Positions 53,165-64,000 of a stretch of 64,000 nt of DNA are shown here, one piece after another (position 1 is the first letter of the stretch; the number at the start of each line of letters is the position of its first letter). The DNA is from Tubulanus polymorphus. Lineage: Eukaryota; Nemertea; Palaeonemertea; Tubulaniformes; Tubulanidae. The stretch lies in contig NC_134033.1 of assembly GCF_964204645.1 (NCBI RefSeq), positions 10,264,231 through 10,328,230 of the forward strand, given 5' to 3'. The notes below the pieces were generated by a model that saw only the letters and a list, made by a program, of their open reading frames with translations, was not told the DNA's origin and did not search any database. A program made the position numbers and the translations under genes.

Positions 53165-56100
53165 CTAGTCCTCTTGCTCACGCTCACTGATATCGCCCCA
53201 CGTCACTGACTTTTGTTCTACGCTCTTTGGTCGTTCGGTAATATCTACAGCGATTACAGGTTGGTGGATCAAATCATCCTCGTTTTCTTCTTCATCGCTA
53301 GCTGCAGCTGCAGAATCCTCATTCTCTTCGTCATTAGCCGCAGCTGCAGCATCATCGTTCTCTTCATCGTTGATAACCTCCTCATTTACCACAGCTGCTG
53401 TCTCCAGGCTATCCTGATCCTTATCTCCGTGTAAACATTGTCCATGTCCCAGAAAACATCTATTAGTATCAGGTGTATCAAGAGTATCCACAGGTGTATC
53501 CACCGTCTTATTCTGCAGTTTATCAGGTGTATTGTGTAGTGTATCGGCTTGTGGTGTATCAGCGTGTTGTGTATCTGTAGGCTGGTGGTCGGTCAGTAGT
53601 GATTCAGTACCATCTCCTGCTCCTCCCATATCACTGAGTTTCTCATCCTCTGCTGCTACAGTGACAAGAAACTCACCAGCACCGCCGCCCTCTTCAGTCA
53701 GAAAGAATCGAACATTATCGTCATCATCAGCAGCAGCAGCAGGAGAGGCAGCAGCACCATCTTCATCCTCAATATCATCAATATTCAGATCTTGTTCATC
53801 TATAGTTGTAAAGTGTAGAGGGGTGTGGCATTCTGTGTCAGTAGGCGTGTTTGGGGGCGGAGTTAACAGCTGTCTGTTATTCGCAGTGATTTCGTCTTCT
53901 ATCTTAATATTTTCGAGTCGAGGAATCGAAACTCCGGAGCCAACGAGAATCGAATCCTGAGGAATCACCTGCTCCTCGTCCTCCGATTCCTCAGCGTTCT
54001 CACGTGATAGCGACCTCTTGTCCTCGCGCCGTTGTGACCTCTCTTTCTCAGCTTCCAGTAATTTCTGTTCGTAATTCGCTGCTTCATTTAATCTCTCTTG
54101 AGTAGTTCTATGTTCGTCGGTAGGTGGTGCCAGACAGATCGATGATCCCGTGATACTAGGAAGCCCGCGGGCTGCCACTGGTTCAGTCATCGACGGAGTG
54201 ACGCCTAAAGCAAATGAATTTTCCAGTTTTACACACTTCAATAAAAATCTAGTTCTCGATAAATGATCCGGATTTGTTAAACTTACCAGCGAGTTTGTGG
54301 GCACTTTTGGGTCTGGAAGGAATGTTAATAGCGGTGGTTGCTGATCCACAAGTGAGTCCGGTTCCTAGAAATGAATAAATCATGAACAATTTGAATAAGC
54401 CTCATATTGATGGGACAAATACAAGTGAGAAGTGTAAAACTATACATCAGTAGATAAAGTAGATACAGTAGATACAATGGGGAAGTGCATATTTGTGGAG
54501 ATGATTAAAATGTTTCATGATCTACTAAATCGTCATAGTGAAGAGCTGCTGATTGAATTGGAGGTGTCTCCTGTGCTGTGGAGGAACTGCTGATTGAATT
54601 GGAGGTGTCTCCTGTGCTGTGGAAGAGATGCTGATCGAATTGAGGGTGTCTCCTGTGCTGTGGAAGAGATGCTGATTGAATTTGGGGTGTCTCCTGTGCT
54701 GTGGAGGAACTGCTGATCGAATTGGAGGTGTCTCCTGTGCTGTGGAAGAGATGCTGATCGAATTGGGGGTGTCTCCTGTGCTGTGGAGGAACTGCTAATC
54801 GAATTGGAGGTGTCTCCTGGGCTGTGGAAGAGATGCTGATCGAATTGGGGGTGTCTCCTGTGCTGTGGAGGAACTGCTAATCGAATTGGGGGTGTCTCCT
54901 GTGCTGTGGAAGAGATGCTGATCGAATTGGGGGTGTCTCCTGTGCTGTGGAGGAACTGCTAATCGAATTGGAGGTGTCTCCTGTGCTGTGGAAGAGATGC
55001 TGATCGAATGGGGGTGTCTCCTGTGTTGTGGAGGAACTGCTGATCGAATTGGGGGTGTCTCCTGTGCTGTGGAAGAGATGCTGATCGAATTGGGGGTGTC
55101 TCCTGTGCTGTGGAGGAACTGCTGATCCAGTTGGAGGTGTCTCCTGTGCTGTGGAAGAGATGCTGATCGAATTGGAGGTGGCTCCTGTGCTGTGGAGGAA
55201 CTGCTGATCGAATTGGAGGTGTCTCCTGTGCTGTGGAAGAGATGCTGATCGAATTGGGGGTGTCTCCTGTGCTGTGGAGGAACTGCTGATCGAATTGGAG
55301 GTGTCTCCTGTGCTGTGGAAGAGATGCTGATCGAACTGGGGGCGTCTCCTGTGCTGTGGAGGAACTGCTGATCGAATTGGGGGTGTTTCCTGTGCTGTGG
55401 AAGAGATGCTGATCGAATTTGGGGTGTCTCCTGTGCTGTGGAGGAACTGCTGATCGAATTGGGGGTGTCTCCTGTGCTGTGGAAGAGATGCTGATCGAAT
55501 TGGGGGTGTCTCCTGTGCTGTGGAGGAACTGCTGATCGAATTGGAGGTGTCTCCTGTGCTGTGGAAGAGATGCTGATTGAATTGGAGGTGTCTCCTTTGC
55601 TGTGGAAGAGATGCTGATTGCACTGGAGGTGTCTCCTGTGCTGTGTAGGAGCTGCCGATTCAATTGGAGGTGTCCCCTGTGCGGTGGAGGAACTGTTTCT
55701 CTCATAAGAGAGGGAATCACTAACTCAGTGCAAGGAGGTGCCGCACACAGGAATTTCTACCTTTAAAGAATTAGTAATAACTACATGGAATCTAGAATGT
55801 AATTTCTTCTTTTTACCATAAGCTGTTATCGGGTAGAGTAATGAAAACAAATACACAACAGTAAGAACCGAGTTAAAGGACTAACGAAATTTAGTTAAAA
55901 ACTAAAATAAAACAGCAAATAAATGAAAAGAGGTCGAGAAGAATATAGTACCTTTCACGTTGAGAGTTTCAGGTGAATCTCTGAATTGTTCGTACATGTG
56001 ATTGATGTTGTAACCGGGTTGAGTCATTGAGTCATCCTCTGTACCCCACACCTGTCTGACTCCGGCGTGACTCCGAGCTGTAGTCACCAGACGCGCCGAT

Positions 56101-59100
56101 GCGGTACCAGCGCGCTGCTGCATAGGTGGCGCTGTTTGAGGCGGGAACTTTCCGGCCTTATCCAGATCACTACAACTCGATGACGGTGAATCTGATAAAG
56201 AAATAAAAACGATCATTTTTCTGGTCTTTCGTATTGATAATAAAATCGTGGCCCAGAAATTGAGTCGGGAATTAATGAAATATTTCTCATCAGTTGTGTT
56301 ATCTGTAATAGTAACAAAAATACTCACCGGGTGGAGTTAGTAGATAATCTTCTGTTTGTTGAGATTGCGTAATTTTTGGTTTGAGATTGATAAAACAACC
56401 GGCTGGGTTGGATCTCGGTAGAAATACTCCATAACGATCTAAACTTCTAGCATCGAAATGATGAGCCCTAAAAACACAACACACAGTTACCTTTTAGCCG
56501 CTAAACCCACTCTGAATGAGTAAAGGTAACCTGTTAGAGGCTTAACTCACTCTGATTTATGAATGAGCAAAGGTAACCCGCTAGAGGCTTAACCCACTCC
56601 GAGAGGGATGGTACCAGATCCAAACTTTTAAGTGGTACAGGGGTCCCTACAGATCAGTCATTCCTGGATGTAAGGAGTTTTAAAGAGGAAAATTTTAAAT
56701 TTCGAGTGAGTGTCTGCATCACTTTAATGCCAATGGGGTACCGGCACCGCTACTGTGGCAATCGAGGATTCCACCTATGGCAGGCGAAGATCCGCCAGGT
56801 AACCAGTAAAACTATACCATACACTCATTGAGAACGTCGACTTGTTTGACAACATTTCCATTTGGGAACCTGAAAATCCAGTTTGAAGTTCATCGAAAAA
56901 GAACTTATTTTTAATGTGTATAACTGAGTGTATTCATGCCAACTGGTGTGTGCCGGTACCCCATTACAGTAGATTGATCCTAAATCAGTACAGTTTAATC
57001 ATGAATTCAGTCTACTGTACAACTACAAACTAGACAAAAATGTCTAATTGTCTCTCAAAATTAAAGGAGTTTTGGGCATTTTGCTCAAATCAAAGGAGAT
57101 TCAAGCACCCTGAAAAGCATTTTGCGTTTTGTAGGAGTTTTTAAGGAATCAAGGTGTTGACGATGATCTCCAGTGAGAGTACCAAACATTGTTTATTTCA
57201 ATTCTAATTCTCTAAAAATAAAATTTGTTATTATCTTTCAAATATCTGTGTGGGTTTTAAATTGATCTGAAATCCTTGTCAGTGTGTACAGGCTTTTCTA
57301 CCTAAACGTAACTGATCCACTCTCATCAGTGGTACCTGATCCACCCTGGGTGGTACAGTAGCTGATCCACTCGTATATGGTACGGTACCTGTTATATCTT
57401 GCACCAGTGAGGAAAGAATGAACAGATTCTCCATCTACAACATCGGGATTGAAACGACGTCTACAAAAATCGAATAGTTTCATACTGAAAAATGATACAG
57501 ATAATCTAAAAAATTTAAATATATCAACCATGAAAATGATAGCTTCCTACAACTTAAACTACATGAGGAGATCATGTACACACTAGATAAGGGTTGAGGA
57601 GAGGAGAGAACACAAGAAACATAAAATAGCACTAGAACAAACAACATAAAGTAAACATTCATTCAAATCCGCAGAATCCTGATTACCTTTCAGTCTTTGA
57701 GGGAGACAGGGAGAGAGGAGAGACACAGGCAGAGAGGAGACAGGCAGAGAGGAGAGACACAGGGCAAGAGGAGAGGCAGGGAGAGGAGAGACACAGAGCA
57801 AGAGGAGAGACAGGGAGAGGAGAGACACAGGGCAAGAGGAGCATCAGAGAGGAGATAAAGAGGGAGGGAAGAAGGGGAATAAGGAGAGAGGGAGTCAAGA
57901 TAAGATACTTACTCACGATGCGACACACATGCTGTAGCTGGACGAGTTCTCACATCTAAAAAAAAATTTCACAAAATCAGAAAACCTGCTGTTGGGTGAG
58001 GCAGCGGGAATCTGGGAGGATCGAATGGTTTTGTTTTTCTTACCTTTCTTTGAAACTTTTCTCGCTTCTAACAGAAACTGATTACTGTTGAGTTGAGCCG
58101 AGTTACTTCTCTGTCGATGACGCAACAATCTGAAAATTCACACAACAAACAGCACAGATTATCTATTCATTCCTCAGTTTTTACTTGGAGAAATTGTGAA
58201 AATCTACATAACATCAGGGAACATACGTCGTCCTGGTGGGTCGTCCTAGTTTGAGGTCGAGATCAGTGATAGGTTGATCTCGTAACTCGGTAGGAGTCAG
58301 ATAGGAATGAGTTGTATTTGAGCGGTAAGTAGACGCAGGGATATCATTCAGACTCTGCGACGTTGATAGTTGAGTTCTGTTCGTTTGTAAAAGAGCCTTC
58401 GCTAGTTTAATATACTCCTTCTGTTGTTCAACCTATGATTTTACAGAACAATTGTTTCGTTTATTCTCTCTGTTTGTAACTCCATTAGAGTCATTTTTGC
58501 AAAGTCAAGGATTGAATTTAAAACCAGTCTAAGCTCATTTCAGTTCTATAACCAACTTTTAAGACCATTCTAAGCTCATTTTGGTTCTACAACCAATCTA
58601 ACAACTTAGGACCAGTCTAAGCTCATTTGGTTCTATAGCCAATCCAACAACTTAAGACCAGTCTACGCTCATTTTGGTTCTACAACCAATCTAACAACTT
58701 GAAGACCAGTCTAAGCTCATTTGGTTCTACAACCAATCTAACAACTTAAGACCAGTCTAAGTTCATTTTGGTTCTACAACCAATCTAACAACTTAGGACC
58801 AGTCTAAGCTCATTTGGTTCTATAGCCAATCCAACAACTTAAGACCAGTCTACGCTCATTTTGGTTCCATATCCAATCTAACAACTTAAGACCAGTCTAA
58901 GCTCATTTTAGTTCTAAATCCAATTTAACAACTTAAGACCAGTCTAAGTTCATTTTGGTTCCATATCCAATCTAACAACTTAAGACCAGTCTAAGCTCAT
59001 TTTGGTTCTACAACCAATCTAACAACTATTAAGACCAGTCTAAGCTCATTTTGGTTCTATAACCCATCTAACAGTGAATATTGTTTGTTTTAAAATTTGT

Positions 59101-60087
59101 TGTACCTTTGTTTGAAGATGTTTTGAATTAAATCCATTGATGAACACATTATCATTATCGTCCTCTACAGCAGAATCAGCGGCCAGTATTTTATCGATGT
59201 CATTGCGTAATTGTCGATGGTAATTGTGTAATTTACGATTACCAGTTCTCTGGCGGTTATTACCTGTGAACAAACAACAGAAAATAATAAAAGAAATCGT
59301 TTTTGCTTATATTGGTTAACCAGTGGTTAAAACTGGATCGCGTCGACTTATTCAGTAACCCGTCAGTGGTTTGGTTTCATGATCGGAGATTTCCATCCGA
59401 TTATAAAAGCTTTAATAGCCTAGCACCAACATCCTTGCTTGCGAGGGTTTAATTGTCGCCCGCTTAACTATATATCTAGCCAATCAGATGCGCTTTAACT
59501 GGCATGACGTTTGCTCCATAAATACCACGCATCTGATTGGCTAGATATAGACCGGTGGGCGCCGAGCGGGAACCTGCCTGCCCAAGAAATCATGGGCAGT
59601 GTAATAGACCGACGAAAGGTTTGCGGCCAGGGTGTGTTGGCGCGAGCTTCAGTGGGCGGCAATCAAAATCTGCCGAGCGAGGATGACCACCAACGATAGG
59701 TAACTAACTAACTTAGGCCCTACTTTTCTTTCAATTAAGTTCCCGTCATACTGAAGATTCTTGGAAGTTAGGATAGAAGAAGGATAGGCGTCACAACCAG
59801 TTTACTCTTTTACAAGGTTAAGGGTCTATAGCTTTTTCAAGCCTACCTTTAACATTGATGTTACCAGTACGAACTGTGCGAGCAGATAGTTGCATCAGTT
59901 TCTTGTTTTCATTATTGTTCTGATCGTCTTCAGGATGAAACTGAAAACTCAAATCGACCATTCGAATTTTACTCTTTCTATTCGTAGAGTTCATTATCAG
60001 TCTCCCTCGACCGCTGCCAACTCGTCCGGCCCCGGCGGCTCGACCTCCGCTGCTGCTGCTGGTCGGTCGATTGTCATTATTTCCCAT
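53165..60087 (-). CDS. Ten-exon gene for an unrecognised 775-aa, largely disordered protein
   Basis: Minus-strand exons 60087-59847, 59263-59106, 58432-58227, 58129-58044, 57955-57913, 57484-57389, 56467-56328, 56191-55952, 54364-54287 and 54204-53165 all join in phase to 775 aa, which strongly supports the model. The N-terminus MGNNDNRPTSSSSGG is Gly/Ser/Arg-rich. Next comes a charged helical stretch (LHNYHRQLRNDIDKILAA; VEQQKEYIKLAKALLQTNRT). The best-structured part is the middle: RTRPATACVSHR, MKLFDFCRRRFNPDVV, AHHFDARSLDRYGVFLPRSN. Then a linker with VWGTEDDSMTQPGYN, a short coiled-coil candidate (RTTQERLNEAANYEQKLLEA, EKERSQRRED), and a long acidic Asp/Glu/Ala tail ending KSVTWGDISEREQED. 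RPATA-like and coil motifs are common in ciliary or microtubule proteins, but that is only a guess. It shares a short upstream region with FIS1. Introns 2, 5 and 8 carry large tandem repeats. Confidence 0.75.
54540..55700. repeat. 45-bp minisatellite with 90-bp dimeric order (intron 8)
   Basis: About 26 units of GAGGTGTCTCCTGTGCTGTG followed alternately by GAGGAACTGCTGATCGAATT and GAAGAGATGCTGATCGAATT. The alternation gives a 90-bp higher-order unit. Because 45 is a multiple of three, two minus-strand frames stay open across the array (encoding repeats like SSSTAQETPPIRS and SLPQHRRHPQFDQ), but neither is needed to join exons 8 and 9. Confidence 0.9.
57690..57890. repeat. Purine-rich GAGAGGAGACAGGG repeat (intron 5)
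   Basis: About 200 bp almost entirely A and G on the plus strand, with loose 20-35-bp periodicity (GAGAGGAGAGACACAGG). In the minus-strand transcript it is a pyrimidine-rich run. Confidence 0.8.
58510..59075. repeat. 48-bp minisatellite in intron 2, about eleven units
   Basis: Units read AACAACTTAAGACCAGTCTA, AGCTCATTTTGGTTCTA, CAACCAATCT. It is the reverse complement of the array at 838-1140. Units here are more uniform than there. Confidence 0.9.
59430..59685. mobile_element. 256-bp MITE of the CATCCTCGC family (intron 1)
   Basis: Left arm CATCCTTGCTTGCGAGGGTT with TAATTGTCGCCCGC; right arm GGGCGGCAATCAAAATCTGC with CGAGCGAGGATG. A second, inner inverted pair is TATCTAGCCAATCAGATGCG and CGCATCTGATTGGCTAGATA. 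Confidence 0.75.
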
Positions 60088-60693
60088 ATTCTCGCTCTAG
60101 GCTAGTCTCAGTTAAGCCCCGCTGCGGCTGCTGCTGTCATGAGAAAACGTATTCATCGTTTTTGCTGAATGTTTTTCGTTACGTTTTTTTTTAAAATTAT
60201 TTTGACAGCCGGAAGTAAACATGATCGGCGGCCATGTTGTTTACACTGGTTGTCAACGAAAGAATATTAACTGTTTTGGGTGGAATTTATCGCAATTTAA
60301 ACCACTATACCTATAGCGGGTTAAATAATCCTTGTTCGGCGGGTATTACAGATATTTGATAATTATTTGATAGTTAAAGGGCGAAACAATGCGGAATCAA
60401 CGTAGAAATAGACTAAAAATAGCAGTTCAATTCAGCGGATAAGTAGCGACTCAATCCAGGTCACTACAGTACCCCGGAAGTAAAGCAATTCAATCAGATA
60501 TATATTGTACGCGTACACGATTATTCTAACCCTAGCATTTATAACCAGATATTTCGCGGGGTATCCTTACCCTATCCTCTCTCCCTGGTGCAACCCTAGG
60601 TTTCGGCAGATCCGATCCCAACCCCAACCCTAGTTGCTTCTGAGACCATTCCTCGCTGTGAACTCAACCGCCAGGCGGTGCTCCGTGCAATTA
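60088..60693. promoter_or_regulatory. Head-to-head intergenic region (unknown gene / FIS1)
   Basis: Only 606 bp separate the two divergent start codons, so core promoters for both must lie here unless there are distant 5' exons. It includes GCTGCGGCTGCTGCTG near the left start, two CGGAAGTAAA sites (60211 and 60475), which resemble ETS-factor sites common in bidirectional housekeeping promoters, and no obvious TATA box. Confidence 0.6.
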
Positions 60694-63002
60694 ATGATGG
60701 AGGCTGTCGAAGCTGTAATGAGAGAAACTGTCGAAACTGAAGACTTAAAGGTAACTTCAACGGCTCCGAGATTGAACCAGTTCTCAAAGAGAAGCTGTCC
60801 CCGAGGAGAGGAGGTTCTGAGGATTTACCCAGTTTACTGGGTCGTGATTTCGAATGTTGATTTTTTTTACAGCATTTTGAACAGATTTTTGAAACTCAAT
60901 TAAGACGCGGGGGAATACCCAGTGACAAAGCGCAATTTGATTATTCATGGTGTCTCATTAGGAGTCGATATTCTAATGATTTACGGCGAGGGATTTCACT
61001 ATTAGAAGGTAACAGTGACGTGAAAGCTGAATGAAATTTTCATGAATACCCATCCTCGTTTGCCAGTAGTGTCTGATTGCTGCCCGGTGATGCTTGTGCC
61101 AACACAAATTCTACCCGCAAATTGTAATAGACCAATGTGAAGGGTTTTGTAATAGACCAATGAAGGGTTTGTGTTGGCGTGAGCTCCAGCGGGCGGCAAT
61201 CAAACACTGGCAAGCGAGGATGATGAATGCCATTATAAATGAAAATTATTTAATAAATATAAATTCATATTGGCAACATATTGGTAATTGGCAATTGCTT
61301 CCAATGAGCCTGTTTGATCACACCCCAGCAATGGGTTATCTATTTCATTACCTGGGGACCTGACAAAAAAAATTTTTTACCCCAGTTACTATAGGCCTAC
61401 ATAAAAAGTTTTTTACATATAGTACCTAGGATACTGGGGTCAAAAATTGTTTTTGTCAAGTCCCTGTGACCCTTACTTATTGAATTTCTTTATAGAATTA
61501 TTTCACCGAACTCAAGATGAAACTGCTAAAAGAGATTACCTTTATTATCTAACGATCGGCAATGCTAAACTGAAGGTATGTTGATCCTTACTGGGCTTCA
61601 TGTAGCTGCCACAGCTGGTGGTGTAGTGAGTGTAGTTGGCTCCATTAATGCGAAGAAGACCTTTCTTTAGGAGTTATAGGATTATTAACAATTAGATCAC
61701 ACAAATCCTATTGGATTTTAATATCGAGACATTACGAACATGAAATGATGAAATGCTGATCTGAAATTAATAACATATAGAATTTAAACTCTGATCTTAA
61801 ATAAATTTGAACACTGATCTTAGATTAATTTCCTATTTAAATCATTCATTATCAAATTTAATACAAATTAACTGGTTAAACTTACATGTTTTTTGACCAA
61901 TATATTCTCCTAAATACTCGTTTAATTGCATGAAATCTAATCTCTACAAAGAATCGACGTGTCGCTCGTTGTATCTACAAAAGTTCTCATCCTAGATTTC
62001 GTTGGTTACACGTGATGAGGCTCTCGATGAGCTATTCGTACCTCTAACAGTGAGCTTCTTACTCATAACGGGTTTTCTGATGATGATGTGCTCGTTTTGT
62101 TGTTTTTTTGAAGGAATATCAGAAAGCTAAGAAGTACGTAGACGCAATTCTATTGGTGGAACCCAATAATCATCAAGCCTCGTGTCTTAAACGATATATC
62201 GAGAAGAAAATGAGAAACGGTAAGAAAAACTACCGATAACGCGTTACCACCATCTCCCTTCTCCGTCTCCGGGACTGTCAGTTTTCATTACATTCACTCG
62301 TTGCTTGTTTATCACTCTGTAGAATCCGCTTAATTCGGATTATTTGGGACCGTTAAAAAATCCATCAGGTTTATGCGAAATCCAGATTAAAAGTCATTTT
62401 CTTGTACATTATTAATGAACAAATGGACCGTAAATATTGTCCGCATAAGACAAAAATCCGGATTAATCCAGTCCGGAATAAGCGGGTTTGGCTACATTTC
62501 TTATTTGTTTTACTTATTTAAAATTCACAATCCTCTACACCTTAACCAAGAATTGAAATAGTTTCGTCTTTAGTTTCACTGTGTGATCTAATTGTTAGCG
62601 TTTAGTTTGAAGTTTGGTTAATTTTTTTGCAGAAGGTTTGTTGGGTATTGCTCTCGTCGGTGGAGCTGCTGCTGCTGCTATTGGAGGTCTAGTCGGAATC
62701 GGGCTGGCTATTTCTAAGAAATAAACCATAACCCTTGTCGCTTCATTCAATATCTTCTCTTCTAAAGTGTTTTTGTTAGTTGCACGGATTTGAATATTCT
62801 AATCTAGACAAATGTATTTTGTTTAATGAAAAATGACACCATACTTTACAATGAGTTTTAATCTATACATATAAAATGAGTTTACTGTGACATTATTTCA
62901 GAGGGATTACTCGGAATGGCTATTGTAGGGGGAGCCACTGCGTTACTGATAGGTGGTATTATCGGTGTCGGAGCTGTGATAGGAAAGCACAGGAAAACAT
63001 GA
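60694..63002 (+). CDS. FIS1: Mitochondrial fission 1 protein
   Basis: Exons 60694-60750, 60873-61008, 61496-61575 and 62114-62219 are followed by either 62633-62724 (156 aa) or 62902-63002 (159 aa). FIS1 is a tail-anchored outer mitochondrial (and peroxisomal) membrane protein that helps recruit the fission machinery and acts in mitophagy-related traffic. The cytosolic TPR-like bundle is clear: QFDYSWCLIRSRYSNDLRRG, ISLLEELFHRTQDETAKRDY, YYLTIGNAKLKEYQKAKKYV and LLVEPNNHQASCLKRYIEKK. Both final exons begin EGLLG and encode a Gly/Ala/Ile-rich membrane anchor and a basic tail. There are two in-frame start Met codons (60694 and 60697). The first exon is short (19 codons), matching the family N-terminal arm. 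The intron between exons 2 and 3 holds a MITE. Confidence 0.95.
61051..61222. mobile_element. 172-bp MITE of the CATCCTCGC family (FIS1 intron 2)
   Basis: Inverted ends CATCCTCGTTTGCCAGTAGT and ACTGGCAAGCGAGGATG; inner arms TGATTGCTGCCC / GGGCGGCAATCA and GTGCCAACACAAA / TTTGTGTTGGCG. The centre repeats GTAATAGACCAATG twice. Confidence 0.8.
62633..62724 (+). other. FIS1: FIS1 alternative last exon A (tail anchor ending SKK)
   Basis: TTTTTTTGCAG acceptor, phase 1 entry, then EGLLGIALVGGAAAAAIGGL, VGIGLAISKK and TAA. An AATAAA overlaps the stop codon (62720-62725). The tail after the membrane segment is SKK. Confidence 0.85.
62902..63002 (+). other. FIS1: FIS1 alternative last exon B (tail anchor ending KHRKT)
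   Basis: CATTATTTCAG acceptor, same phase 1 entry, then EGLLGMAIVGGATALLIGGI, IGVGAVIGKHRKT and TGA. The GMAIVGG start is closer to the usual family sequence. Polyadenylation signal AATAAA at 63528-63533. Confidence 0.85.
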
Positions 63003-64000
63003 ATAATAAGAATATGTGCAGTAAAATACTGTCGGGTACACGGTGTGTGACAACCTCGCGACAGAATGTCATTTAAATAATCAGTGATTCTAGGTTTTTC
63101 ATGCATTTTTTTAATGAGATCAATAATTCTAGGGATTTAATTCATTTTTTGAATGAGATCTGCAGACAAAACGCTTGGTGTTTCAAAGATGAATAGTAAC
63201 AGTTCATAATTAAGAAGGGTAGAATTTCATGTTTGAAGTTAAACTGCTGTCAGTTTAACTTCTAGAGACTAACCGATAGTCTTTGTGGTCCAATCAAAAT
63301 CATAACATTTCGTAATTCTATGAATTTGAACCAACGAAAGTGACAGTAAATCCAGCAACTGTGGAACTTAAAGTTTCATTACTAAATTGTAGTAAAATGA
63401 TTTGAGTTTCGATTCAGTGTTGATTCATTATTGATTATGTATTTGTAGTATTGTGAGCCATGTTTATACCATGTATATAGCATATTATTATAATATATTA
63501 TTAATTGTATTATGAGCTTAATGTAAAAATAAAACTACTGTACACAAGTGAAATGAGCTCTGTTTCTTTTTTCCTCATTTTGTTTGATCTCTCTCAACTG
63601 ATTAGTGTCAAACTAGTTCTCCTCAACCTACCATGAACTACTGGTAGTTGGCGAGATGGATTTAACCCAAAACCATGGCTCTAAACCCGGTTTTTTAGCC
63701 CTTCTCTAAATCCTTGAGGTTTTGAGTGACCTAATTCCTTATGTAGTTTATTTTAGCAAATTAATATTTGTATTTTTGGCACCTCGTGGAGCTCACCGCC
63801 AGTACGCTGGAGCGGCGTGTGAGCCTAAATTGAGCCTCTGCCAGGATTTGAAGACCGCGTCATCCATCTCATCGATTACAATCGGTGTGTTTGAAGTGAC
63901 AATTTATTATCTACAATATTCATTACGATATTATTTACACAAATGTAGTTTTTATACACAGATTTAAGCCTTTTGTCAGTTTAATATCGAAACAAATACT
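63003..64000. other. FIS1 3' untranslated region and right flank
   Basis: The first 530 bases are the probable FIS1 3' untranslated region. After that no exon is certain. A GC-richer open stretch at 63778-63883 (APRGAHRQYAGAACEPKLSL, on the plus strand) has no recognisable domain and could be a repeat or part of an exon continuing beyond the edge. Confidence 0.4.
63528..63533 (+). terminator. FIS1: Likely FIS1 polyadenylation signal
   Basis: AATAAA about 525 bases after the distal stop, followed by TGTTTCTTTTTTC-like GT/T-rich sequence at 63559-63575. Confidence 0.6.

Follow-up and report, generated by a model that had tools for sequence, protein, structure and literature searches.

Two tandem terminal exons in the FIS1 gene of the nemertean Tubulanus polymorphus encode alternative predicted tail anchors

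We analyzed a window of 64,000 nucleotides from Tubulanus polymorphus (contig NC_134033.1, positions 10,264,231 to 10,328,230 of the forward strand), which contains a FIS1 gene with exactly two anchor exons. This locus was the sole one found in the 268-Mb genome, where our search returned no second FIS1 gene. The features of the gene, all on the plus strand and in window coordinates, are as follows.

60694-60750, plus strand: FIS1 coding exon 1 (MMEAVEAVMRETVETEDLK), from its translation, the donor AAG/GTAACT and a match in the species' own genome
60873-61008, plus strand: FIS1 exon 2, N-terminal TPR, from Pfam Fis1_TPR_N, splice sites and an own-genome match
61496-61575, plus strand: FIS1 exon 3, from its translation, splice sites and an own-genome match
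62114-62219, plus strand: FIS1 exon 4, C-terminal TPR, common to both isoforms, from the donor ACG/GTAAGA (phase 1) and Pfam
62633-62724, plus strand: coding part of terminal exon 5a, anchor EGLLGIALVGGAAAAAIGGLVGIGLAISKK, stop TAA, from the top acceptor of the region and an own-genome match
62720-62725, plus strand: AATAAA, possible proximal poly(A) signal that overlaps the 5a stop, with a GT-rich stretch at ~62766-62783
62902-63002, plus strand: coding part of terminal exon 5b, anchor EGLLGMAIVGGATALLIGGIIGVGAVIGKHRKT, stop TGA, from the third-ranked acceptor of the region and a genome match
63528-63533, plus strand: AATAAA, probable distal poly(A) signal for both isoforms, with a GT/T-rich stretch downstream

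Splicing exons 1-4 to position 62633 yields an open reading frame of 156 amino acids that ends in ...MRNEGLLGIALVGGAAAAAIGGLVGIGLAISKK, and splicing them to 62902 yields one of 159 amino acids that ends in ...MRNEGLLGMAIVGGATALLIGGIIGVGAVIGKHRKT. Both predicted forms match Pfam Fis1_TPR_C (PF14853; 1.3e-22) and Fis1_TPR_N (PF14852) above the cut-off, and the 5b form matches the human Fis1 structure 1PC2 (E = 1.1e-41). The product therefore has the two Fis1-type TPR-like repeats, according to both Pfam and 1PC2, and in each form a single C-terminal membrane anchor is followed by a short basic tail. Exons 5a and 5b are entered in the same phase, with exon 4 contributing one G of the split codon, and each has its own stop (62722-62724 in 5a and 63000-63002 in 5b). 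An earlier, sequence-only reading of this DNA had proposed a FIS1 gene with two complete tandem last exons. The open frames and the Pfam and 1PC2 matches confirm that proposal, and its exon coordinates, shared phase and separate stops proved correct upon splicing and translation.

Acceptor sites were scored with a crude model at all AGs in 62240-63100. The acceptor of 5a, at 62632, ranks first in this interval with 9.6 bits, and that of 5b, at 62901, ranks third with 6.1 bits; the remaining FIS1 acceptors score 7.1-8.3 bits. The 5b site is ordinary, falling in the top 6% of the window's AGs and outscored by a cryptic AG at 62322. Both acceptors had been called good, a description that suits 5a but not 5b, which is fair. 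Based on exon order and acceptor strengths, 5a would probably be the default. The best donor between the two acceptors (2.4 bits) lies inside 5a and the best past the 5a stop reaches 1.5 bits, compared to 6.4-9.1 bits for the real FIS1 donors, and use of 5a as an internal exon appears unlikely. Because 5a ends in a stop and lacks a usable donor, the choice between 5a and 5b would be mutually exclusive by construction. In principle, then, exclusive use in the mRNA would be enforced by the exon layout itself, and special machinery would be unnecessary. RNA structure predicted across 5a and 5b was no more stable than that of shuffled sequences (z = +1.0). AATAAA occurs at a frequency of 1.1 per kb on the plus strand of the window, so the signal at 62720 is weak evidence for a proximal site. 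The layout would fit alternative polyadenylation, or equally a simple choice of acceptor in transcripts that all end at the distal poly(A) site.

The two anchors are physically similar. Over 26 residues, GRAVY is 2.09 for 5a and 2.13 for 5b, and it is 2.08 for the human FIS1 anchor. The anchors had been said to differ in their hydrophobic core; the core sequences do differ, yet their average hydrophobicity is the same. The basic tails are KK (+2) in 5a and KHRKT (+3 plus His) in 5b, a gap of approximately one charge. Given equal GRAVY and so small a gap, the two forms may differ little, if at all, in where they are targeted. In mammals, hydrophobicity and tail charge jointly set targeting to the ER, mitochondria or peroxisomes (PMC5450235). 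For example, wild-type FIS1 localizes to mitochondria and peroxisomes, compared to mainly peroxisomes for the more charged FIS1-SR, and an ACBD5 tail of +4.9 directs the protein to peroxisomes, compared to mitochondria, with some dual localization, for a tail of +2.9 (PMC5450235). The charge step in ACBD5 is larger than the one that separates 5a from 5b. Applying this mammalian rule to the gene described here is an extrapolation; by the ACBD5 values, the 5a and 5b tails would both fall in or near the mitochondrial or shared range. We expect a modest shift at most, with 5b more peroxisomal, rather than separate addresses, and the proposal that 5a and 5b confer different membrane targeting is weak. 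The machinery for such sorting exists, as PEX19 and MFF are both present in the genome. MFF, used as a control tail-anchored gene, has a single tail in the stretch that we read by eye.

It is possible, though we think it somewhat unlikely, that both anchors are made and lead to the same address. Selection would then keep the two exons for their different 3′ UTRs, which could affect mRNA stability, localization or translation, or for membrane residence or oligomerization via the glycine faces of the anchors. The near-identical GRAVY values, the same pattern of glycines and the gap of about one charge between the tails are all consistent with this explanation. Likewise, each of the Drosophila Fis1 isoforms, LL and LS, surrounds mitochondria, and the two have similar effects on oxidative stress (PMC8208795). 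If the UTRs alone mattered, however, divergence to SKK in one copy and KHRKT in the other would be needless, although drift could produce it.

Comparison of 5a and 5b points to an old origin by tandem duplication. Exon 5a sits 177 bases upstream of 5b on the same strand and in the same phase (phase 1), as expected of tandem duplicated exons, and 18 of 30 residues are identical between the encoded tails, 14 of them via different codons. All eight glycines of 5a are also in 5b. Exon 5a retains IGLA-SK as in human FIS1, a feature lost in 5b. Exon 5b retains GMAIVGG as in human FIS1, which is lost in 5a (1PC2 alignment). When the whole 268-Mb genome was searched with the 5b protein, the only matches were 5b itself and 5a (E = 0.0018), and no third anchor copy was found in 60000-64000 or elsewhere in the genome. 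A search of viral contigs found no relatives. The coding DNA of the two exons is 57% identical, with 11, 5 and 23 differences at codon positions 1, 2 and 3, respectively. Silent sites are saturated (pS 0.80), compared to a pN of 0.29 (Fisher p ~6e-6), and this saturation, coupled with conservation of the protein, indicates that both exons have been used. A simulated copy left unconstrained since the duplication kept at least 18 identical residues in ~0.02% of cases, and did so without a stop in ~0.01%. Selection on both copies is thus indicated by pS and pN and by the dead-copy simulations, which do allow for loss of one copy within the last ~0.3 substitutions per site. The flanks of 5a and 5b are no more similar than shuffled sequence, so they hold no trace of the duplication. 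On the strength of the shared residues, the retained glycines, the excess of silent change and the simulations, the last exon of FIS1 represents an old tandem duplication, both copies of which have been kept by selection over most of their history.

These results also bear on whether one of the copies, more likely 5b with its weaker acceptor, has recently lost splicing and still looks intact. We consider this improbable. An acceptor of just 6.1 bits is what such a relic might have, and the simulations leave room for a recent death, but the frame, stop and acceptor are intact in both copies, and death of either one since the duplication is rejected (P ~1e-4). An assembly or haplotype artefact, in which an allelic copy was wrongly placed next to the first to give the second exon, is already contradicted by the divergence of the coding parts and by flanks no more alike than chance, with both exons on one 16.5-Mb contig; nothing that we found favors it, and we regard it as extremely unlikely.

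The explanation that we favor, and hold to be fairly probable, is that an ancient duplication of the anchor exon has been kept as a pair of alternative terminal exons, with both mRNAs made and a modest change in partition between organelles. We are confident of the anatomy and of past selection, have moderate confidence in present-day production of the two mRNAs, and are weakly inclined toward a difference in targeting between the 5a and 5b forms. In this explanation, an ancient tandem duplication gave FIS1 a second copy of its final coding exon, and the pair has been retained as alternatives. Exon 4 would join either 5a, which is closer, has the stronger acceptor and is probably the default, or 5b, and each mRNA would encode one anchor by virtue of the stop in each exon and the lack of a usable donor in 5a. 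Transcripts containing 5a could end at the proximal poly(A) signal at ~62720 or continue through 5b to the shared site at ~63528. The two proteins would have the whole cytosolic TPR domain in common and differ in the anchor and tail alone. The more basic tail of 5b may favor PEX19 and peroxisomes, with 5a presumably acting like human FIS1. A more speculative version, which we consider doubtful, is that regulated choice between the two ancient anchor exons separately sets the level of FIS1 on mitochondria and on peroxisomes, and that the arrangement may be old and protostome-wide, with the fly LL and LS isoforms as its counterpart.

Variation in C-terminal tails has been observed in several genes, including FIS1. 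The Drosophila Fis1 isoforms LL (154 amino acids) and LS (148 amino acids) have different C-terminal tails (PMC8208795). Both surround mitochondria, part of LS also fractionates with the cytoplasm, and the two are proposed in that study to differ in location (PMC8208795). As predicted for T. polymorphus, one FIS1 gene gives rise by alternative splicing to the same TPR domains with different C-terminal tails; here the tail exons are homologous and in tandem, whereas the origin of the fly tails is not stated in PMC8208795. The sequence-only reading knew of no described duplication of a FIS1 anchor exon. Different tails of FIS1 were in fact known from the fly; homologous exons are not stated for them, and we found no report of a FIS1 anchor duplication in the open-license literature. 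Further variants of mouse and fly FIS1 lack the N-terminal region (PMC10641528). Among unrelated proteins, SLMAP has two alternatively spliced tail anchors, TA1 and TA2, and the anchor decides between the ER and mitochondria (PMC2712456). It resembles the present case in having one gene with two tail anchors, but the SLMAP anchors differ in hydrophobicity and those of 5a and 5b do not. Similarly, the kinase DMPK has alternative C-termini from one gene, and tail versions 1 and 2 direct the mouse isoforms to the ER or the mitochondrial outer membrane (PMC2778554). For the natural isoforms FALDH-ER and FALDH-PO, as for the engineered FIS1-SR, the charge of the tail determines whether the protein goes to the ER, mitochondria or peroxisomes (PMC5450235), but the FALDH charge gap (-1.1 versus +9.1) far exceeds that between 5a and 5b. 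Tandemly duplicated exons have been reported in ~10% of animal genes (PMC9013439). Among substitutions between such exons, swaps at the C-terminus are over-represented (77 of 236 human events), frequently exchanging transmembrane helices (PMC9741552); the main text of that study does not mention FIS1. Exons 5a and 5b resemble this class as homologous neighboring exons with predicted mutually exclusive use. Alternative tail anchors, terminal tandem-exon swaps and fly FIS1 tails are therefore already known, which reduces the novelty of the arrangement described here.

FIS1 acts on both mitochondria and peroxisomes, and mammals use one anchor for both, making the two roles of the protein hard to separate. 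A species in which one cytosolic domain naturally comes with either of two anchors could offer a ready-made pair of tails with which to ask how the partition is determined, and deletion of one exon is a possible route to removing FIS1 from one organelle. As the tails are physically alike, the effect may prove small.

The surroundings of the gene include two tandem arrays. At 54540-55695 there are 28 copies of a 41-bp unit with 88% matches, and this array is open in several frames, giving long, probably spurious open reading frames (54795-55756, minus strand). Approximately 1.6 kb upstream of FIS1, at 58518-59073, are 11 copies of a 47-bp unit with 89% matches and a higher-order period of 187. 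A head-to-head neighbor may have its first coding exon on the minus strand at ~59849-60087, with an ATG at 60087 and a donor close to 59849; the FIS1 start is roughly 600 bases away, and this candidate exon has no Pfam match. Similar stretches (tgtaatagacc..., ...gcggcaatcaaa...gcgaggatga) were seen by eye at 59560-59690, upstream of FIS1, and at 61074-61230, in intron 2, and are perhaps a short dispersed repeat. Elsewhere in the same genome, an array of units like gatccagttccacagttctg was noted by eye downstream of the MFF stop (L011:1840-2140).
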